Of a stretch of DNA of 64,000 nt, positions 29,405-39,072 are shown piece by piece. The notes beneath the pieces are model-generated. The model was not told the origin of the DNA and did no database searches. It saw only the letters and a list, made by a program, of their open reading frames with translations. Source of the stretch: Mycobacterium cookii. Lineage in GTDB: Bacteria; Actinomycetota; Actinomycetes; Mycobacteriales; Mycobacteriaceae. Location: the NCBI RefSeq assembly GCF_010727945.1, contig NZ_AP022569.1:3410001-3474000 (forward strand). Direction: 5' to 3'. Position 1 is the first letter of the stretch, and every line of letters starts with the position of its first letter. The position numbers and the translations under genes are program-made.

Positions 29405-30673
29405 ATGGCGCGTTTCCCGAAGCCGGCGGAGGGCAGCTGGACCGAGCACTATCCCGAGCTCGGCACGGCGCCGGTGTCCTATGAAGACTCCATCAGTCCC
29501 GAGATCCACGACCTCGAACGCGAGGCCATCTTCAAACGAGCCTGGCTGAATGTCGGTCGTGTTGAACAGCTTCCCCGCAAGGGTAGTTACTTCACCAAGG
29601 AACTGAAGGTCGTCAATACGTCAATCATTCTGGTGCGCACGGGATCAGGTGAGGTCAAGGCGTTCCACAACGTGTGCCGGCATCGCGGCAACAAGTTGGT
29701 GTGGAACGACATGCCGCTGGAAGAGACCCGCGGTGTGTGCCGGCAGTTCACCTGCAAGTACCACGCCTGGCGCTATGACTTGGACGGCAACCTGACGTTT
29801 GTGCAGCAGGAAGGCGAATTCTTCGACCTCGACAAGAGCCGCTACGGCCTCGTACCGGTGCACTGCGATGTCTGGGCGGGATTCATTTTTGTCAACTTCG
29901 CCAAGAGGCCCGAGCAGTCATTGCGCGAATTCCTCGGGCCGATGGTGACCGCGCTGGAGGGCTATCCCTTCGACCAGATGACCTCGCGCTGGTGCTACCG
30001 ATCGGAAGTCAAAGCGAACTGGAAGCTCTACATGGACGCCTTTCAGGAGTTTTACCACGCACCGGTATTGCATGCGAACCAGTCACCGACCGCGTACTCA
30101 AAAGCCGCGGCCGAGGCGGGTTTTGAAGCCCCGCACTATCGGCTGGATGGGCCGCACCGGCTGGTCAGCACCTCGGGGGTGCGGGCCTGGGAGATGGCCG
30201 CCGAGATGCGCAAGCCAATCGAGGACATCTGCCAGAGCGGGCTGTTCGGCCCGTGGGACAAGCCTGATCTGGGGCCGATGCCCGACGGGCTGAACCCGGC
30301 GAAATGTGATCCGTGGGGCCTGGATTCGTTTCAGCTGTTCCCGAATTTCGTCATCCTGTTCTGGGGCCAGGGCTGGTATCTGACATACCACTACTGGCCG
30401 ACGTCCTACAACAGCCACGTCTTTGAAGGGACGCTGTACTTCCCGGCGCCCCGCACGCCGCGCGAGCGGGTGGCTCAGGAGTTGGCGGCAGTCTCCTTCA
30501 AGGAATACGGGCTGCAGGATGCGAACACTCTCGAAGCGACGCAGTCGATGATCGAATCGCGGGTGATCGACACCTTCGTCCTCAACGATCAGGAGATCCT
30601 TCTCCGTCATCTCCACAAAGAGACGGCGGCCTGGATTGAGCAGTACCGGCAGATGACCACGGCGGGGGTGTGA
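29405..30673 (+). CDS. Rieske non-haem iron oxygenase alpha subunit (copy 1)
   Basis: The 422-residue oxygenase starts at ATG 29405. The Rieske [2Fe-2S] ligands are Cys91, His93, Cys117 and His120 (CRHRG and CKYHAW). The catalytic domain keeps Asp211 for electron transfer and His218/His223 (YHAPVLH) of the mononuclear iron site. Such enzymes hydroxylate or dihydroxylate aromatic rings, steroids or quaternary amines using electrons from a ferredoxin. Copy 2 at 34041 has the same spacing and roughly half its residues in common. It is followed by a small partner gene three bases downstream. The substrate is unknown. Confidence 0.92.
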   Translation: MARFPKPAEGSWTEHYPELGTAPVSYEDSISPEIHDLEREAIFKRAWLNVGRVEQLPRKGSYFTKELKVVNTSIILVRTGSGEVKAFHNVCRHRGNKLVWNDMPLEETRGVCRQFTCKYHAWRYDLDGNLTFVQQEGEFFDLDKSRYGLVPVHCDVWAGFIFVNFAKRPEQSLREFLGPMVTALEGYPFDQMTSRWCYRSEVKANWKLYMDAFQEFYHAPVLHANQSPTAYSKAAAEAGFEAPHYRLDGPHRLVSTSGVRAWEMAAEMRKPIEDICQSGLFGPWDKPDLGPMPDGLNPAKCDPWGLDSFQLFPNFVILFWGQGWYLTYHYWPTSYNSHVFEGTLYFPAPRTPRERVAQELAAVSFKEYGLQDANTLEATQSMIESRVIDTFVLNDQEILLRHLHKETAAWIEQYRQMTTAGV

Positions 30674-30676
30674 CCT

Positions 30677-30997
30677 ATGCTTCCCGTCGAGTTCGCCGAC
30701 TTAGAGCCGTTTACGGAGTGGTGTCTGCCCAGTGAGCCGCAACGCTATGCCAAGCGGCTGGCCAGCTCCATGGTTGAGATGAAGGCGTTCTATGACGCGA
30801 TCACCCCGAGAGCCGAAGAGGCGTTGGCGTTCTGCGACAAATTTCCTCTCAGCGAACTACCTGATGATGTCGAGAACCTGATGCATTTGCTGTACTCGAT
30901 GATCATGGTGTCGTTCCCGGTGGAGTGCTGGAAACAGCCCCGGGTGCCCGACTCGGGTGCCTCCACCCTGAACTGCGTGTCCGAGCCCGCTCCGTGA
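30677..30997 (+). CDS. Small Rieske-linked protein, unrecognised family (copy 1)
   Basis: The 106-residue acidic protein belongs to no family I recognise. It is clearly a paralogue of the protein encoded at 35300-35641. The shared positions are WCL (residues 16-18), SM-E, FYDA, PR-EEA, CDKFPL, LPDD, YS-IMV and a late QP. Both copies start within a few bases of a Rieske alpha-subunit stop. This strict pairing suggests a subunit, assembly factor or electron-transfer adaptor of the oxygenase. It is too short and lacks the usual features of a ring-hydroxylating dioxygenase beta subunit (about 160 residues). It overlaps the next gene by four bases. Confidence 0.8.
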   Translation: MLPVEFADLEPFTEWCLPSEPQRYAKRLASSMVEMKAFYDAITPRAEEALAFCDKFPLSELPDDVENLMHLLYSMIMVSFPVECWKQPRVPDSGASTLNCVSEPAP

Positions 30998-32253
30998 GCG
31001 ATGTCACGGTTCTGCGGGCGGCGCGATGGGCCGACGTCGTCACCGGCGAGATCCGTACACCGGCGGTGGTCGTCGTCGAGGACGAATGTATTGCGGCTAT
31101 CAATCCCGAAGCGCCGCTGCCGGATTCGGCCACTATCGTCGATTTGGGTGACCTGACGTTGCTGCCGGGTTTGATGGACATGGAGCTCAACCTGCTGATC
31201 GGCGGGCCCGGCGGCCCCGAGGGTTTGCCGTCGCCGATGCACGGCGTCCAAGACGATCCGGCCTACCGCACGCTGCGCGGCGCGGTCAACGCGCGCACCA
31301 CACTCGACGCCGGATTCACCACCGTGCGCAATCTAGGGTTGATGGTCAAGACCGGCGGCTACCTGCTCGATGTGGCGCTGCAGCGTGCCATCGATCAAGG
31401 CTGGCACGTCGGGCCTCGGATCTATCCCGCCGGCCACGCCGTCACCCCCTACGGCGGTCACCTCGACCCGACGGTGTTTCAACGGCTCGCACCCGGCATC
31501 ATGCCGCTGTCGGTGGGGGAGGGCATCGCCAACGGTGTGCCGGACGTGATCGCCTGCGTGCGGTACCAGGTTCGGCACGGCGCCAAGCTGATCAAGGTGT
31601 CCGCCTCCGGGGGTGTGATGTCGCACAGCACTGCGCCGGGCGCGCAGCAGTACTCCGATGCCGAGTTCGCCGCCATCGCCGACGAGGCCCATCGCGCCGG
31701 TGTGCGCGTCGCGGCCCACGCGGTCGGAGACAGCGCCATCCGGGCCTGCATCCGGGCCGGCATCGACTGCATCGAGCACGGTTTTCTTGCCAGCGACGAC
31801 ACCATCCAGATGATGGTCGACCACGGCACCTTCCTGGTGTCGACCACCTATCTGACCGAGGCCATGGCGATCGACCGCATCGCACCCGAACTGCGCAAGA
31901 AAGCGCTGGAGGTGTTCCCGCGCGCAAAAGCCATGTTGCCGAAGGCAATTGCGGCCGGCGTACGAATCGCGTGCGGCACGGACGCTCCCGCCATCCCGCA
32001 CGGCCAGAACGCCAAGGAGCTCGGCGCGCTGGTGACACGCGGTATGACACCGGCGCAGGCAATCAAGGCGGCGACCATCGTCGCCGCCGAGCTTGTCGAG
32101 GCCGACGACGAGTTGGGCCGGCTGTCACCGGGCTACCTCGCCGACATCATCGCCGTGCCCGGCGATCCTTTCACCGACATCGCCGCCACCCTCGACGTCC
32201 GCTTTGTCATGAAGAACGGGCAGATCCACAAGTCGCCCGCCGCATGCCCATGA
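30994..32253 (+). CDS. Amidohydrolase-family protein lacking the HxH metal motif
   Basis: The 419-residue protein starts at GTG 30994, overlapping the previous stop (GTGA). It has the imidazolonepropionase/Xaa-Pro-dipeptidase-like amidohydrolase fold: the lysine segment AKLIKVSASGG, AHAVGDSA, CIEHGFL and the Asp in CGTDAPAIP. The first metal-binding motif, normally DxHxH after LPGL, reads MDMELNLL (residues 61-68), so both of its histidines are gone. Other ligand positions remain, so it may bind one metal or use a different site. Its position in the Rieske operon suggests hydrolysis of an amide, lactone or cyclic intermediate. Confidence 0.85.
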   Translation: MSDVTVLRAARWADVVTGEIRTPAVVVVEDECIAAINPEAPLPDSATIVDLGDLTLLPGLMDMELNLLIGGPGGPEGLPSPMHGVQDDPAYRTLRGAVNARTTLDAGFTTVRNLGLMVKTGGYLLDVALQRAIDQGWHVGPRIYPAGHAVTPYGGHLDPTVFQRLAPGIMPLSVGEGIANGVPDVIACVRYQVRHGAKLIKVSASGGVMSHSTAPGAQQYSDAEFAAIADEAHRAGVRVAAHAVGDSAIRACIRAGIDCIEHGFLASDDTIQMMVDHGTFLVSTTYLTEAMAIDRIAPELRKKALEVFPRAKAMLPKAIAAGVRIACGTDAPAIPHGQNAKELGALVTRGMTPAQAIKAATIVAAELVEADDELGRLSPGYLADIIAVPGDPFTDIAATLDVRFVMKNGQIHKSPAACP

Positions 32254-32301
32254 ACAGAGCGCGGACACCCCACATGTCGCCACGTGCGATAACGTCGAGT
32301 C

Positions 32302-32811
32302 GTGGCTGATCAGCGATCCCGCAGGCGGAGTCCGCAGACAGTGGACACGCAGGCGGGTCTGGAACTCACCGACAACATCCTCTGGCTGCTCAAGCAGGCG
32401 TTTTACTACTCGCTGACTACCATCAACGACGCGATGAAGATGCACGGTGTGAGCACCGCCCAGATCGGTGTGTTGCGCCAACTCAGCAACGAACCAGGCC
32501 TCTCCGGTGCTGAATTGGCCCGGCGACTACTGATCAGCCCTCAAGGTGTGCAGCTCGCCCTCACCGCGCTGGAGAAGCGCGGCTTCGTCGAACGCAAACA
32601 AGATCCCCAGCACGCACGCATCTTGCGGGCGCACCTCACCGGTGAAGGACGCAAGGTCGCTGAAACCGTTGTCAGCGAGGCGATCTCAGCGCATCAGGAC
32701 GTGTTCGGGGTCCTCACCGCCGATGAGCAGCAGACGTTGCGCGAACTACTGGGCCGCGTGGTCGAAAAAGGCACCGGCCACGAACTCTTCATCGATCACG
32801 TCGAGAGTTAA
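32302..32811 (+). CDS. MarR-family transcriptional regulator
   Basis: The 169-residue protein starts at GTG 32302. The winged helix-turn-helix is clear: LSGAELARRLLISPQGVQLAL, in which SPQGVQLAL is the recognition helix, then the wing RKQDPQHARILRAHLT. MarR proteins usually repress catabolic operons until an aromatic or lipophilic ligand binds. Palindromic sites of the form CAAGTA-N5-TACTTG flank this gene on its downstream side and recur before other transcription units of the cluster, making it the likely regulator. It sits between the amidohydrolase and ferredoxin genes in the same direction. Confidence 0.9.
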   Translation: MADQRSRRRSPQTVDTQAGLELTDNILWLLKQAFYYSLTTINDAMKMHGVSTAQIGVLRQLSNEPGLSGAELARRLLISPQGVQLALTALEKRGFVERKQDPQHARILRAHLTGEGRKVAETVVSEAISAHQDVFGVLTADEQQTLRELLGRVVEKGTGHELFIDHVES

Positions 32812-32848
32812 CCCCCTGCTCGCTGGCGTGAGCGCCGTTCCGGTGAAC

Positions 32849-32892
32849 CTAGTATCTAGTACTTGAGATTAGTCACAAGTAGTTGATACTCT
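32849..32892. promoter_or_regulatory. Two putative MarR operators before ferredoxin operon
   Basis: Site A is CTAGTA-TCTAG-TACTTG (32849-32865, 11 of 12 arm positions). Site B is CAAGTA-GTTGA-TACTCT (32876-32892, 10 of 12). Their centres are 27 bp apart, and both lie within 50 bases of the ferredoxin start, consistent with repression of the ferredoxin-SDR-Rieske 2 transcript. Confidence 0.6.
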
Positions 32893-32899
32893 GACCGGG

Positions 32900-33235
32900 A
32901 TGAGTGACGAGCCCACGCCCTTACGTAACGGACCGGTCGCAACGGCCGCCGCCGGCGCCGTGCCGGACGAGATCACGATCAAGCTCGACGGGCGCACCAC
33001 CGCAGCGCCGTACTCCGCCGGCGACACAATTCTGCAGACGGCGCGCATGGCAGGTCTGCAGGCACCGTCGTCCTGTGAAATCGGCTCGTGCGCCACGTGT
33101 ATGGCTCGGATAACCCACGGCAGCGCCCGGATGCTCAACAACGATGCGCTCGAGCCGGATGAGGTGGACGAAGGCTGGGTGCTGACATGCCAGGCGTTGC
33201 CCACCAGTTGCACTGTGCGGGTGGAATATGAATGA
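32900..33235 (+). CDS. [2Fe-2S] ferredoxin, plant type
   Basis: The 111-residue ferredoxin has cluster ligands Cys59, Cys64, Cys67 and Cys97 (CEIGSCATC, then VLTCQA). This spacing is that of plant-type ferredoxins and of the C-terminal domain of oxygenase reductases such as KshB. Here the domain is free-standing and no FAD/NAD reductase is encoded nearby, so a reductase from elsewhere must supply electrons. It is the natural electron donor for the two Rieske oxygenases. It is first in a plus-strand series reaching to about 37.6 kb and is preceded by two putative MarR operators. Confidence 0.9.
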   Translation: MSDEPTPLRNGPVATAAAGAVPDEITIKLDGRTTAAPYSAGDTILQTARMAGLQAPSSCEIGSCATCMARITHGSARMLNNDALEPDEVDEGWVLTCQALPTSCTVRVEYE

Positions 33236-33271
33236 CCGACCGGAGGTATTGACCGCGATGGATCGCAACTG

Positions 33272-34015
33272 ATGAGCAAGGTGGCGGTGGTGACCGGCGG
33301 GGCCTCCGGCATGGGCGAGGCGACGTGTCACGAACTAGGCCGGCGCGGGATAAAAGTCGCGGTCTTGGACGCCAATGAGGTCGCCGCACAACGTGTGACC
33401 GAGGATCTGCGGGCCGACGGCGTGACCGCGCTCGGGGTAGGCGCTGACGTCACCGACCGGCCAGCGGTTGAGCAGGCCTTCGCGAAGGTGCGCAGCGAAC
33501 TGGGGCCGGTAACGATCTTGGTGACCAGTGCCGGCATGTTCGGATTCTCGCCGTTCGCCGATATCACCACCGAATCCTGGTCTCGCATGATCGATGTCAA
33601 CCTGACCGGCACGTTCCACTGTTGCCAGGTTGCGTTGCCCGACATGGTCGACGCGCGGTGGGGCCGGATCGTGATGATCTCGTCGTCGAGCGCCCAGCGC
33701 GGATCCCCCTTCGCGGCGCACTACGCGGCTTCCAAGGGGGCGGTGATCACCTTGACGAAGTCGTTGGCCCGCGAATACGCCGCATACGGAATCACCGTCA
33801 ACAACATCCCACCCTCAGGCATCGAAACCCCGATGCAACACCAGGGTCAGGCCGCCGGATACCTACCCTCCAACGAGCAGCTTGCCAGCAACATCCCACT
33901 GGGCTACCTGGGCACCGGCGCCGACATCGCGGCGGCAGTGGGATTTTTGTGCTCAGAGGAAGCCCGCTACATCACCGGCCAAACCCTCGGCGTCAACGGG
34001 GGAGCGGTGATGTGA
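33272..34015 (+). CDS. Short-chain dehydrogenase/reductase
   Basis: The 247-residue classical SDR (FabG-like length) shows the glycine motif TGGASGMG at residues 8-15, Ser in MISSSSAQRG and the catalytic YAASK. The NNAG motif is altered to TSAGM. The C-terminal TLGVNGGAVM is typical. Classical SDRs oxidise the alcohols or dihydrodiols generated by Rieske oxygenases. It lies between the ferredoxin and Rieske 2 genes with only 25 bases to the latter. Confidence 0.9.
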   Translation: MSKVAVVTGGASGMGEATCHELGRRGIKVAVLDANEVAAQRVTEDLRADGVTALGVGADVTDRPAVEQAFAKVRSELGPVTILVTSAGMFGFSPFADITTESWSRMIDVNLTGTFHCCQVALPDMVDARWGRIVMISSSSAQRGSPFAAHYAASKGAVITLTKSLAREYAAYGITVNNIPPSGIETPMQHQGQAAGYLPSNEQLASNIPLGYLGTGADIAAAVGFLCSEEARYITGQTLGVNGGAVM

Positions 34016-34040
34016 CGACCGATGACGACTGGAGGTTTCG

Positions 34041-35303
34041 ATGACACGATCAGGAAGGCCCCCGGAAGGTTCCTGGACCGAGCACTACCCCGAGCTCGGC
34101 ACCGGCCCGATCTCCTTCAGGGATTCGACCTCCCAGGAGTTCTACAACCTTGAACGCGAGGCAATCTTCAAGAAGGCCTGGCTGAACGTCGCGCGCGTCG
34201 AGGAACTTCCACGGGCCGGCAGCTATCTCACCAAAGAAATTGAAGTTGTCGGAACGTCGGTGATCCTGGTGAAGGGCAAAGACGAACGGGTTCGCGCCTT
34301 TTACAACGTATGTCGGCACCGTGGAAACAAGTTGGTGTGGAACGACTTTCCTGGCGAAGAGACCCGAGGCACGTGCCGCCAGTTCACCTGTAAGTATCAC
34401 GGTTGGCGGTACGACCTGCAGGGTGCCCTGAAATTCGTTCAGCAGCAGTCGGAGTTTTTCGACCTTGACCTGGCCGACTACGGCTTACGTCCGTTGCCTT
34501 GCGAGGTGTGGAACGGCTTCATATTCATCAACTTCGACCCCGAGCCGGACCAGAGCCTGCGCGACTTTTTGGGCCCGATGATCACCGGGCTTGATGACTA
34601 CCCCTTTGCGAAACTGACTGAACGCTACGAATGGGTAGCGCACAACAACAGCAATTGGAAGATCTTCGCCGACGCCTTCCAGGAGTACTACCACGTCCCC
34701 TCGCTGCACTCCCAGCAAGTGCCCGCAGAGGTACGTGAACCCAACGCCGGATTCACCTGCGGCCATTTCCAACTCGACGGCCCGCACCGACTGGTATCCA
34801 CCGCCGGTACGCGCCGCTGGCTGCTGCCCCCCGAATACATGTATCCGATCGAGCAGGCTACCCGCAGTGGACTGGTCGGACCGTGGCGTACCCCCGATAT
34901 CGGTGAGCTTCCGGACGGGCTCAACCCCGGCAACATCGAGCCCTGGGGAATCAGTAATTTCCAGATCTTCCCCAACACCGAAATCCTCATCTACGGCGGC
35001 TGGTATCTGCTGTACCGATACTGGCCCACATCGCACAACACCCACCGTTTCGAGGCCTACACATTCTTCTCGCCTGCCCGCACCGTACGAGAACGCGTGG
35101 AGCACGAAGTCGCCTCGGTGGTGCTCAAGGAGTTCGCACTGCAGGACGCGGGCATGCTCGGCGGAACTCAGGCAGCGCTGGAATACGGGATCGTCGACGA
35201 CTTTCCACTCAACGATCAAGAGATCCTGGTGCGCCACCTGCACAAGGTGGTCGTCGACTGGGTCGAGGCGTACCGCCGCACCCAGGCCCCGGTAGGAGTA
35301 TGA
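34041..35303 (+). CDS. Rieske non-haem iron oxygenase alpha subunit (copy 2)
   Basis: The 420-residue paralogue of the 29405 gene has identical ligand spacing: Cys91, His93, Cys117, His120 for the Rieske cluster and His218/His223 with Asp211 in the catalytic domain (YYHVPSLH). The N-terminal EGSWTEHYPELGT is nearly the same in both. Substrate-pocket segments differ (for example around residues 224-240), so the two may act on successive intermediates. The stop overlaps the start of its small partner gene (ATGA). The ferredoxin encoded upstream likely reduces it. Confidence 0.92.
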   Translation: MTRSGRPPEGSWTEHYPELGTGPISFRDSTSQEFYNLEREAIFKKAWLNVARVEELPRAGSYLTKEIEVVGTSVILVKGKDERVRAFYNVCRHRGNKLVWNDFPGEETRGTCRQFTCKYHGWRYDLQGALKFVQQQSEFFDLDLADYGLRPLPCEVWNGFIFINFDPEPDQSLRDFLGPMITGLDDYPFAKLTERYEWVAHNNSNWKIFADAFQEYYHVPSLHSQQVPAEVREPNAGFTCGHFQLDGPHRLVSTAGTRRWLLPPEYMYPIEQATRSGLVGPWRTPDIGELPDGLNPGNIEPWGISNFQIFPNTEILIYGGWYLLYRYWPTSHNTHRFEAYTFFSPARTVRERVEHEVASVVLKEFALQDAGMLGGTQAALEYGIVDDFPLNDQEILVRHLHKVVVDWVEAYRRTQAPVGV

Positions 35304-35641
35304 CCGTGGGAGAAACCCGGCTGCCGAGCGCGTTCGCCGAATTCGAAAGCTACGCCCAGACCTGGTGTCTGGCAACAGAAACCGAGCGATGGAACGCCCG
35401 TGTCAACGCGTCGATGCCTGAACTGCACGACTTCTACGACGCGTTCTTCCCGCGCCTGGAAGAAGCGATCGAGTATTGCGACAAGTTCCCGCTCGACGAC
35501 TTACCCGACGACGCGCTGCACCTGCTGCACCTCATCTACTCGCTGATCATGGTGGCCATGGCGGTGGAAATCATGCACCAGCCCGCCCCGGTCGACGCCG
35601 CCGACGCGGTCATGATCCGTACTGGCGAACCAATCCCGTGA
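35300..35641 (+). CDS. Small Rieske-linked protein, unrecognised family (copy 2)
   Basis: The 113-residue protein is a paralogue of the one at 30677-30997. Conserved features are TWCLATETERW, the block FYDAFFPRLEEA, YCDKFPLDDLPDD and YSLIMVAMAVE. The pattern predicts a mostly helical protein with two conserved cysteines (WCL and CDK). The ATGA overlap with the Rieske gene means they are translated together, supporting a stoichiometric complex. No known domain is recognised. Having the same pair twice in one cluster is the best evidence that this is a functional unit. Confidence 0.8.
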   Translation: MTVGETRLPSAFAEFESYAQTWCLATETERWNARVNASMPELHDFYDAFFPRLEEAIEYCDKFPLDDLPDDALHLLHLIYSLIMVAMAVEIMHQPAPVDAADAVMIRTGEPIP

Positions 35642-36530: not shown

Positions 36531-36845
36531 ATGGCCAAAGCACTGCTGTTCGTCGAAAGCAAACCCGCCTCACCCGAGCAGGTCGACGACTATCACGCGT
36601 GGCACGAGAGCACGCACATCCCCGAGATGCTCAGCGTCGATGGGTTCGTTTCGGCGCGACGCTGGCACGCCGACGACGGTGAATCCTTCATCACGCTCTA
36701 CGAGATCGACACCGATGTCGAGACCGCCCGAGCGAACCTCAAAGCCGCGCTGCAAGCCGGTCAGATGTCCCGACCCGACGTTGTCCAGTTGCAACCGCCT
36801 CCCGTCCAGCGCTATCTGACATTCGTGGGTGAAACCACCGCGTGA
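36531..36845 (+). CDS. EthD-like dimeric alpha/beta-barrel protein
   Basis: The 104-residue protein has the ferredoxin-like pattern of dimeric alpha/beta-barrel (EthD/DUF4286-type) proteins: strand ALLFVESK, helix with YHAWHESTHIPEML and strand GFVSARRWH. Such small proteins act as monooxygenases, isomerases or chaperone-like partners in aromatic and steroid degradation. It lies 12 bases after the TauD gene and overlaps the next gene by four, so it is co-translated with it. A conserved His pair in HAWHESTH could be catalytic. Confidence 0.75.
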   Translation: MAKALLFVESKPASPEQVDDYHAWHESTHIPEMLSVDGFVSARRWHADDGESFITLYEIDTDVETARANLKAALQAGQMSRPDVVQLQPPPVQRYLTFVGETTA

Positions 36846-38748: not shown

Positions 38749-39072
38749 ATGGGTATCGGTATTCAGGTTGATGGGCTGACGAAGTCCTTCAGTGCCTAGC
38801 GAATCTGGGAAGACGTCACGATGGACATTCCCGAGGGAGAGGTCAGCGGGCCGCTGGGCCCCTCAGGTACCGGTAAGTCCGTTTTCTTGACGTCGCTGAT
38901 CGGCCTGCTGCGCCCCGAGCGCGGCTCGATCATGGTCGACGGCACCGGCATCACCGAGTGCTCGGCCAAAGAGCTCTACGACATCCGCTCCCTGTTCGGC
39001 GCCATGTTCCAGGACGGCGCCCTGTTCGGGTCAATGAACCTGTTCGACAACTCCACGTTCCCGTTTCTTTAG
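38749..39072 (+). pseudogene. mceG: mceG (mkl) ATPase remnant with nonsense codon and truncation
   Basis: The frame begins as the Mce-transporter ATPase MceG (MGIGIQVDGLTKSFSA), meets an in-frame TAG at 38797-38799 and continues as RIWEDVTMDIPEGEVSG. The P-loop GPSGTGKS, the RPERGSI segment and FQDGALFGSMNLFDN follow. It ends at FPFL, where MceG would continue for more than 200 residues. The 3' break coincides with the end of the convergent TetR gene, so a rearrangement joined them. It is non-functional; genome-wide mce import would rely on another mceG copy. Confidence 0.88.

Follow-up and report, generated by a model that had tools for sequence, protein, structure and literature searches.

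In a 64,000-nucleotide stretch of the Mycobacterium cookii genome (contig NZ_AP022569.1, positions 3,410,001 to 3,474,000; this whole stretch is referred to as the window), two genes for the alpha subunit of a Rieske oxygenase are each followed by a gene for a small protein, and the data described here suggest, with a probability of roughly 0.6, that this small protein serves one distinct clade of Rieske oxygenases as a dedicated, non-catalytic subunit. The gene of alpha 1 (422 amino acids (aa), 29405..30673) is separated by a gap of 3 nucleotides (nt) from that of small 1 (106 aa, 30677..30997), which was assigned to its family by search and alignments, and the start of small 2 (113 aa, 35300..35641) overlaps the stop of alpha 2 (420 aa, 34041..35303) in the sequence ATGA; all four genes are on the forward strand. 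This is in agreement with an earlier, sequence-only reading of this DNA, in which each alpha gene was said to be trailed by a small gene. Both alphas pass the Pfam cut-offs for the Rieske domain (PF00355, with E-values of 8.4e-15 for alpha 1 and 7.3e-16 for alpha 2) and for Ring_hydroxyl_A (PF00848, 2.9e-34 and 3.3e-49, respectively). The module had also been described as duplicated, which is true for the window, and the same genome holds two further alpha-small pairs outside it.

The two alphas are identical at 247/416 positions and the two small proteins at 49/106, and all six motifs that had been listed as common to the small proteins (WCL, FYDA, PR-EEA, CDKFPL, LPDD and YS-IMV) are indeed present in both. 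When small 2 is used as a query in a search of the genome, small 1 is recovered with an E-value of 2.4e-27, so that their likeness is not a matter of chance; a fortuitous resemblance or a spurious open reading frame (ORF) is ruled out by this value, by the sequence identity and by the conservation of the pair on other contigs. The family is large, as a search of a large protein set with small 2 gives 1349 proteins at E <=0.001 (the best 120 being listed), and a profile of 11 plasmid members gives 303 matches (the best 120 being listed here too), whose sources bear names such as Variovorax, Herbaspirillum, Ramlibacter, Rhodobacteraceae, Candidatus Binatia and Desulfurellaceae; for the bins named after the last two, the evidence concerns the small protein alone. 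Two family alignments match each other with a probability of 100% and an E-value of 1.2e-50, one of them drawing on the search results of the other. In the alignment of 105 rows, P9, W22, R30 and E90 are invariant, and a conserved cysteine or histidine is absent, the best columns having 30% Cys and 43% His. Judged from its sequence, the small protein is therefore without the conserved Cys or His ligands of ferredoxins and iron-sulphur proteins.

The small protein had been said to belong to no known family, and this is confirmed by the searches. There is no Pfam match for small 1, small 2 or any of the plasmid members tested (10/10), and when the 105 alignment members are scanned at E 0.01, 104 are matchless, the remaining one having a chance-level match (0.0087) to a family other than PF00866. 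The 12 small proteins compared with NCBIfam are all without a match (12/12), and the PDB sequence searches with the small protein give nothing significant (best E-values 0.47 and 0.083). A match to a characterised family of other function, which had been named beforehand as evidence against a new partner, was thus looked for in Pfam, NCBIfam and the PDB sequences and did not appear. Some members carry the source names "Xaa-Pro dipeptidase" or "M13 family metallopeptidase" (P0021, P0056 and others); these names have no Pfam support among the 105 members scanned, which took in P0021 and not P0056, and are likely annotation errors. As a separate observation, a contig labelled Acidobacteria (L074) carries a small gene 78% identical and an alpha piece 80% identical to those of the window, and this pair is perhaps a mycobacterial contamination of an Acidobacteria bin.

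The pairing of the two genes is strict. In the M. cookii genome all four small genes (4/4) are beside an alpha, each such alpha having its own copy, and five of the nine PF00848 alphas (5/9) are without a small gene. On 80 public contigs, which had been picked out with the small protein and come mostly from close relatives, 140/140 small ORFs of at least 50 aa have an alpha directly upstream; a variant of the count with a spacing of 0-200 nt gives 138, the remaining two sharing 1-2 nt with the alpha match. At one contig edge (L005) there is a 138-nt small fragment with no alpha in view. The whole-genome survey was carried out for Actinomycetota, Pseudomonadota being covered through plasmids. 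Among the 396 actinomycetote genomes, 35 small genes are found in 13, whether the profile has 9 or 105 rows, and at a threshold of 1e-20 the alpha profile matches an alpha of some kind in 127. In this survey, in which the best four candidates at most were scored per genome, the listed alpha matches fall into a group of 34 at >=467 bits and, after a gap, a group at <=198 bits. All 34 high-scoring alphas among the matches listed (34/34) have the small gene directly after them, and all small genes have an alpha (35/35), the 35th (G385:C64, L170) being paired with a 471-bit alpha outside the listed matches. By coordinates, none of 21 lower-scoring alphas is paired (0/21; 14 from genomes with the small gene and 7 from others). 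The second alpha of L083, which was considered as an unpartnered alpha of the clade, is distant (116 bits) and was rejected. A natural fusion of the two proteins, which would have revealed their contact, does not occur as a stop-to-stop ORF with both matches among the loci examined. The profile search and the counting of Rieske adjacency proposed by the sequence-only reading thus show a pairing that holds in both directions, and the lack of co-occurrence with Rieske genes elsewhere, which it had named as the opposite outcome, is not seen.

The pair is also carried on plasmids of Alpha-, Beta- and Gammaproteobacteria. Among the plasmid records with an alpha at E <=1e-40, 13/15 have the pair; in the two exceptions, Sphingobium TKS and MI1205, the alpha match begins only at query residue 109, and the paired record of Acinetobacter YH12138 and the exception TKS were judged from search coordinates alone. 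All 17 full-length plasmid alphas at >=217 bits have a partner (L125-L127, L130-L134, L136-L139, L207, L214, L215, L219 and L221; 16 from Pseudomonadota and one, L130, from Rhodococcus), and none of eight plasmid alphas at <=206 bits (L206, L208-L213 and L220), hand-picked from the best 60 of 744 records, has one. Two loci are outside these sets, namely L135, which has the small gene and an alpha in two pieces, and L129, in which an orphan small gene occurs together with a truncated 207-bit alpha. At four loci the small gene is 5' of the alpha: L126 (Cupriavidus), L139 (Burkholderia), L214 (Novosphingobium resinovorum) and L215 (Novosphingobium EMRT-2). On the alpha tree, L214 clusters with two loci of the usual order (L125 and L132), and therefore, by parsimony, the gene order has changed at least twice while the linkage was kept.

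The partnered alphas form a clade of their own. In a tree of 67 alphas, the 38 with and the 29 without a small gene nearby are split by one branch with a support of 100/100, where the unpartnered rows were found by a profile of, or by search with, partnered alphas and several of the rows are long-branched. This branch is present in 100% of 200 bootstrap trees, and shuffled labels give an average of 22 changes. Residue conservation was scored on 36 partnered and 29 unpartnered alphas, the partial alphas L063 and L070 being kept in the tree and left out of the residue and distance comparisons. In the partnered alphas, both the C-X-H plus C-X2-H motif (C91/H93/C117/H120) and the 2-His-1-Asp site (H218/H223/D372) are present, with C91, C117, H218, H223 and D372 at 100%, H93 at 98% and H120 at 97% (weighted); from the alignment we take the former to be the cluster ligands, the latter to be the iron site and E215 to be the bridging residue. 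The glutamate at the bridging position is found in 35/36 partnered alphas and was considered as a mark of the clade, but it is not diagnostic, because 91% (weighted) of the unpartnered alphas have a glutamate there too. More specific are N297, E359 and R401 (alpha 1 numbering), which are at 100% in the partnered alphas and at 11%, 17% and 5%, respectively, in the others (weighted). The model of the alpha, which is weak (mean predicted local distance difference test score (pLDDT) 61.8), places E359 and R401 in two C-terminal helices. The distances between alphas and those between small proteins correlate with r 0.894 over 36 pairs, compared with a maximum of 0.325 after shuffling.

The model of small 2 (mean pLDDT 88.7, with values >=90 at 89/113 residues) consists of four helices, without a strand, and a coil tail. 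The confidence of the tail decreases from a mean pLDDT of 84 (residues 91-100) to 58 and then 56, being low from about residue 101, and it is in this region of low confidence in the lone model that some positions are kept in the wider family, as R105 (75%) and P113 (97% of the rows present). A PDB fold search with this model gives no clear structural match.

The strict pairing, the presence of one copy per paralogue, the reversals of gene order with kept linkage, the matched divergence and the lack of conserved Cys or His together point to a protein that acts on the alpha itself. Its physical binding to the alpha is inferred, as are the stoichiometry, the contact site and the effect on activity given here. 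Each alpha has its own small copy, encoded adjacently and once in the window with overlapping stop and start. The four-helix body and the C-terminal coil tail would bind to the alpha trimer, possibly close to N297, E359 and R401 (alpha 1 numbering), the C-terminal residues that mark the clade. The resulting complex could be of a type such as alpha3-small3, in which the small protein would take the part that beta subunits play in other classes and stabilise or gate the oxygenase. The oxygenases of this clade probably need an extra, undescribed part to work.

It is possible, though unlikely, that the small protein is instead a private assembly or maturation factor, which binds the nascent alpha, helps to load its cluster or iron or to form the trimer, and then departs. 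The strict pairing and the close spacing fit such a factor, as do the small size and the poorly conserved Cys and His columns, which would suit a chaperone, but each of the four paralogous pairs of one genome has retained a copy of its own, as is more usual for a stoichiometric subunit, and this favours a cognate subunit over a shared chaperone; the alphas of other clades manage without the small protein. An adaptor that docks a ferredoxin or a reductase on the oxygenase is improbable. There are ferredoxin or reductase genes near several pairs, including those of the window, where a Fer2 ferredoxin is encoded; near the plasmid pairs, going by the annotators' names, there are PDR/VanB reductases, a Rieske 2Fe-2S protein, a "non-heme iron oxygenase ferredoxin subunit" and a "(2Fe-2S) ferredoxin domain" protein. 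The adaptor is disfavoured because the partner is constant, being one family throughout, while the neighbouring electron-donor genes change type. Very improbable is an independent role in the pathway, as an enzyme or a binding protein whose gene is only co-transcribed with those of the oxygenase, given that at the annotated loci the pathway neighbours differ and the alpha is constant, and that the small protein has no conserved Cys or His; such an enzyme would nevertheless fit the linC plasmids, on which the small gene adjoins linC and an EthD-domain gene with no intact alpha adjacent. The sequence-only reading had proposed a new obligate partner, perhaps a subunit, an assembly factor or a ferredoxin-docking adaptor. 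The two-way pairing upholds the partner, and within that proposal the subunit is favoured, the assembly factor is possible and the adaptor has lost ground.

Several points weigh against a dedicated subunit. The linkage and the one copy per paralogue fit a private assembly factor too. The correlation of 0.894 includes shared ancestry, and the clade-specific alpha residues may serve only the fold of the alpha itself, the alpha model being weak. The argument for alpha contact from the tail is thin, as the model loses confidence only from about residue 101 and several tail positions of small 1 and small 2 themselves differ from the consensus of the family. Furthermore, plasmids of Sphingomonas sp. 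MM-1 and Sphingobium sp. MI1205 (L128, L129 and L216) carry orphan small genes next to linC, standing after linC and the EthD-domain gene with IS6100 on the flanks. Close to these IS6100-flanked orphans there are truncated pieces of an alpha in the regions L128 and L129 and none in the third, L216, which speaks against a separate enzyme, and our guess is that linC descends from an oxygenase cluster of the alpha-small kind.

The neighbourhood of the pairs in the window looks like a catabolic cluster. A [2Fe-2S] ferredoxin of the Fer2 type (32900..33235, PF00111 4.5e-16) is encoded between the two pairs and, from its position, is a candidate electron donor of the window oxygenases. Directly 3' of small 1 there is an amidohydrolase (30994..32253, PF01979 4.2e-39), and just 5' of alpha 2 a short-chain dehydrogenase, a neighbouring pathway enzyme (33272..34015, PF00106 3.6e-60); these three genes are also on the forward strand. 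Other neighbours are a P450, an acyl-CoA dehydrogenase, an aldehyde dehydrogenase and at least one further short-chain dehydrogenase, as well as a carboxymuconolactone-decarboxylase-family protein and a dioxygenase of the TauD type. Elsewhere in the genome, a paralogous pair (L003, with ORFs read by eye) is likewise followed by an amidohydrolase-like ORF, and there a SnoaL-like gene comes next. A 104-aa protein 3' of the second pair (36531-36845) has a weak DUF4286 match below the cut-off, and DUF4286- or EthD-named genes adjoin small genes in L127 and L128 too. The ORF at 38821-39072 resembles, by eye, the first part of an ABC-transporter ATPase and ends early.

Interest in Rieske oxygenases comes from biocatalysis and from the removal of pollutants. 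If the clade needs the small protein, its alphas, at present annotated as "aromatic ring-hydroxylating dioxygenase subunit alpha", may lack activity or stability when they are expressed without it, and a name would become available for a family with well over a thousand clusters of hypothetical proteins, counted from one query.

The known partner that invites comparison is the classical beta subunit (PF00866), which like the small protein is a non-catalytic partner encoded next to the alpha. The beta subunits of Rieske oxygenases have an NTF2-like alpha+beta fold, whereas the model of the small protein is all-helical, and PF00866 is matched by neither small 1 nor small 2, nor by the 10 plasmid members or the 105 alignment members; the sequence and the predicted fold together rule out a short classical beta subunit. 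In the M. cookii genome the one PF00866 gene over the cut-off adjoins an alpha of another kind, a second match being weaker and below the cut-off. The small protein was also considered as a stand-in for a beta-like NTF2 protein; SnoaL-like genes, none of which matches PF00866, accompany the small gene at five loci (L133, L134, L136, L137 and L138), and the two are therefore not mutually exclusive. The role in stability and specificity proposed for the small protein resembles that ascribed to beta subunits in the accessible part of a 2025 review (PMC12445004).

There is also a precedent for an accessory protein in a Rieske system. NdmE, of the caffeine N7-demethylase NdmCDE, is an extra non-redox protein needed by the enzyme, being glutathione-S-transferase-like and specific to one pathway, and is likened to the small protein by description only. 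The same applies to IacB, a small protein of 125 aa and of unknown kind in the indole-acetate iac cluster, as described in the accessible parts of two papers (PMC11676955, PMC11373566). Among the papers listed by the literature searches, which miss most subscription papers, there is no report of such a small partner, and the words "auxiliary", "third" and "NdmE" do not occur in the text of the 2025 review (PMC12445004).

By sequence, the best-scoring PDB relative of the alpha is the Group V carnitine monooxygenase CntA (PDB entries: 6Y8J and 6Y9C), the match being good only in the N-terminal half (profile 31-234). The bridging residue of CntA is E205, according to the accessible part of its description (PMC7948474), and there is a glutamate at the aligned position in the alphas studied here. 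A Cys-X-X-Cys pair beside the iron site, said in the part of the source available to be unique to some Group V members (PMC10952381), is present in CntA and is absent after E215 in alpha 1 and at the same place in alpha 2. CntA is an alpha3 homotrimer that works with the reductase CntB, with no small partner mentioned in the accessible part of its account, in contrast to the alpha-small pair described here. The commonest assemblies of the solved Rieske structures, as given in the accessible part of the 2025 review, are alpha3, alpha3-beta3, alpha3-alpha'3 and alpha3-alpha3 (PMC12445004). We lean slightly towards the view that the alpha-small pair is a further architectural class, in which the alpha trimer would be completed by a helical subunit unrelated to beta, from mycobacteria to Alpha-, Beta- and Gammaproteobacteria; such a class would have been overlooked because its subunit is short and without a family model.

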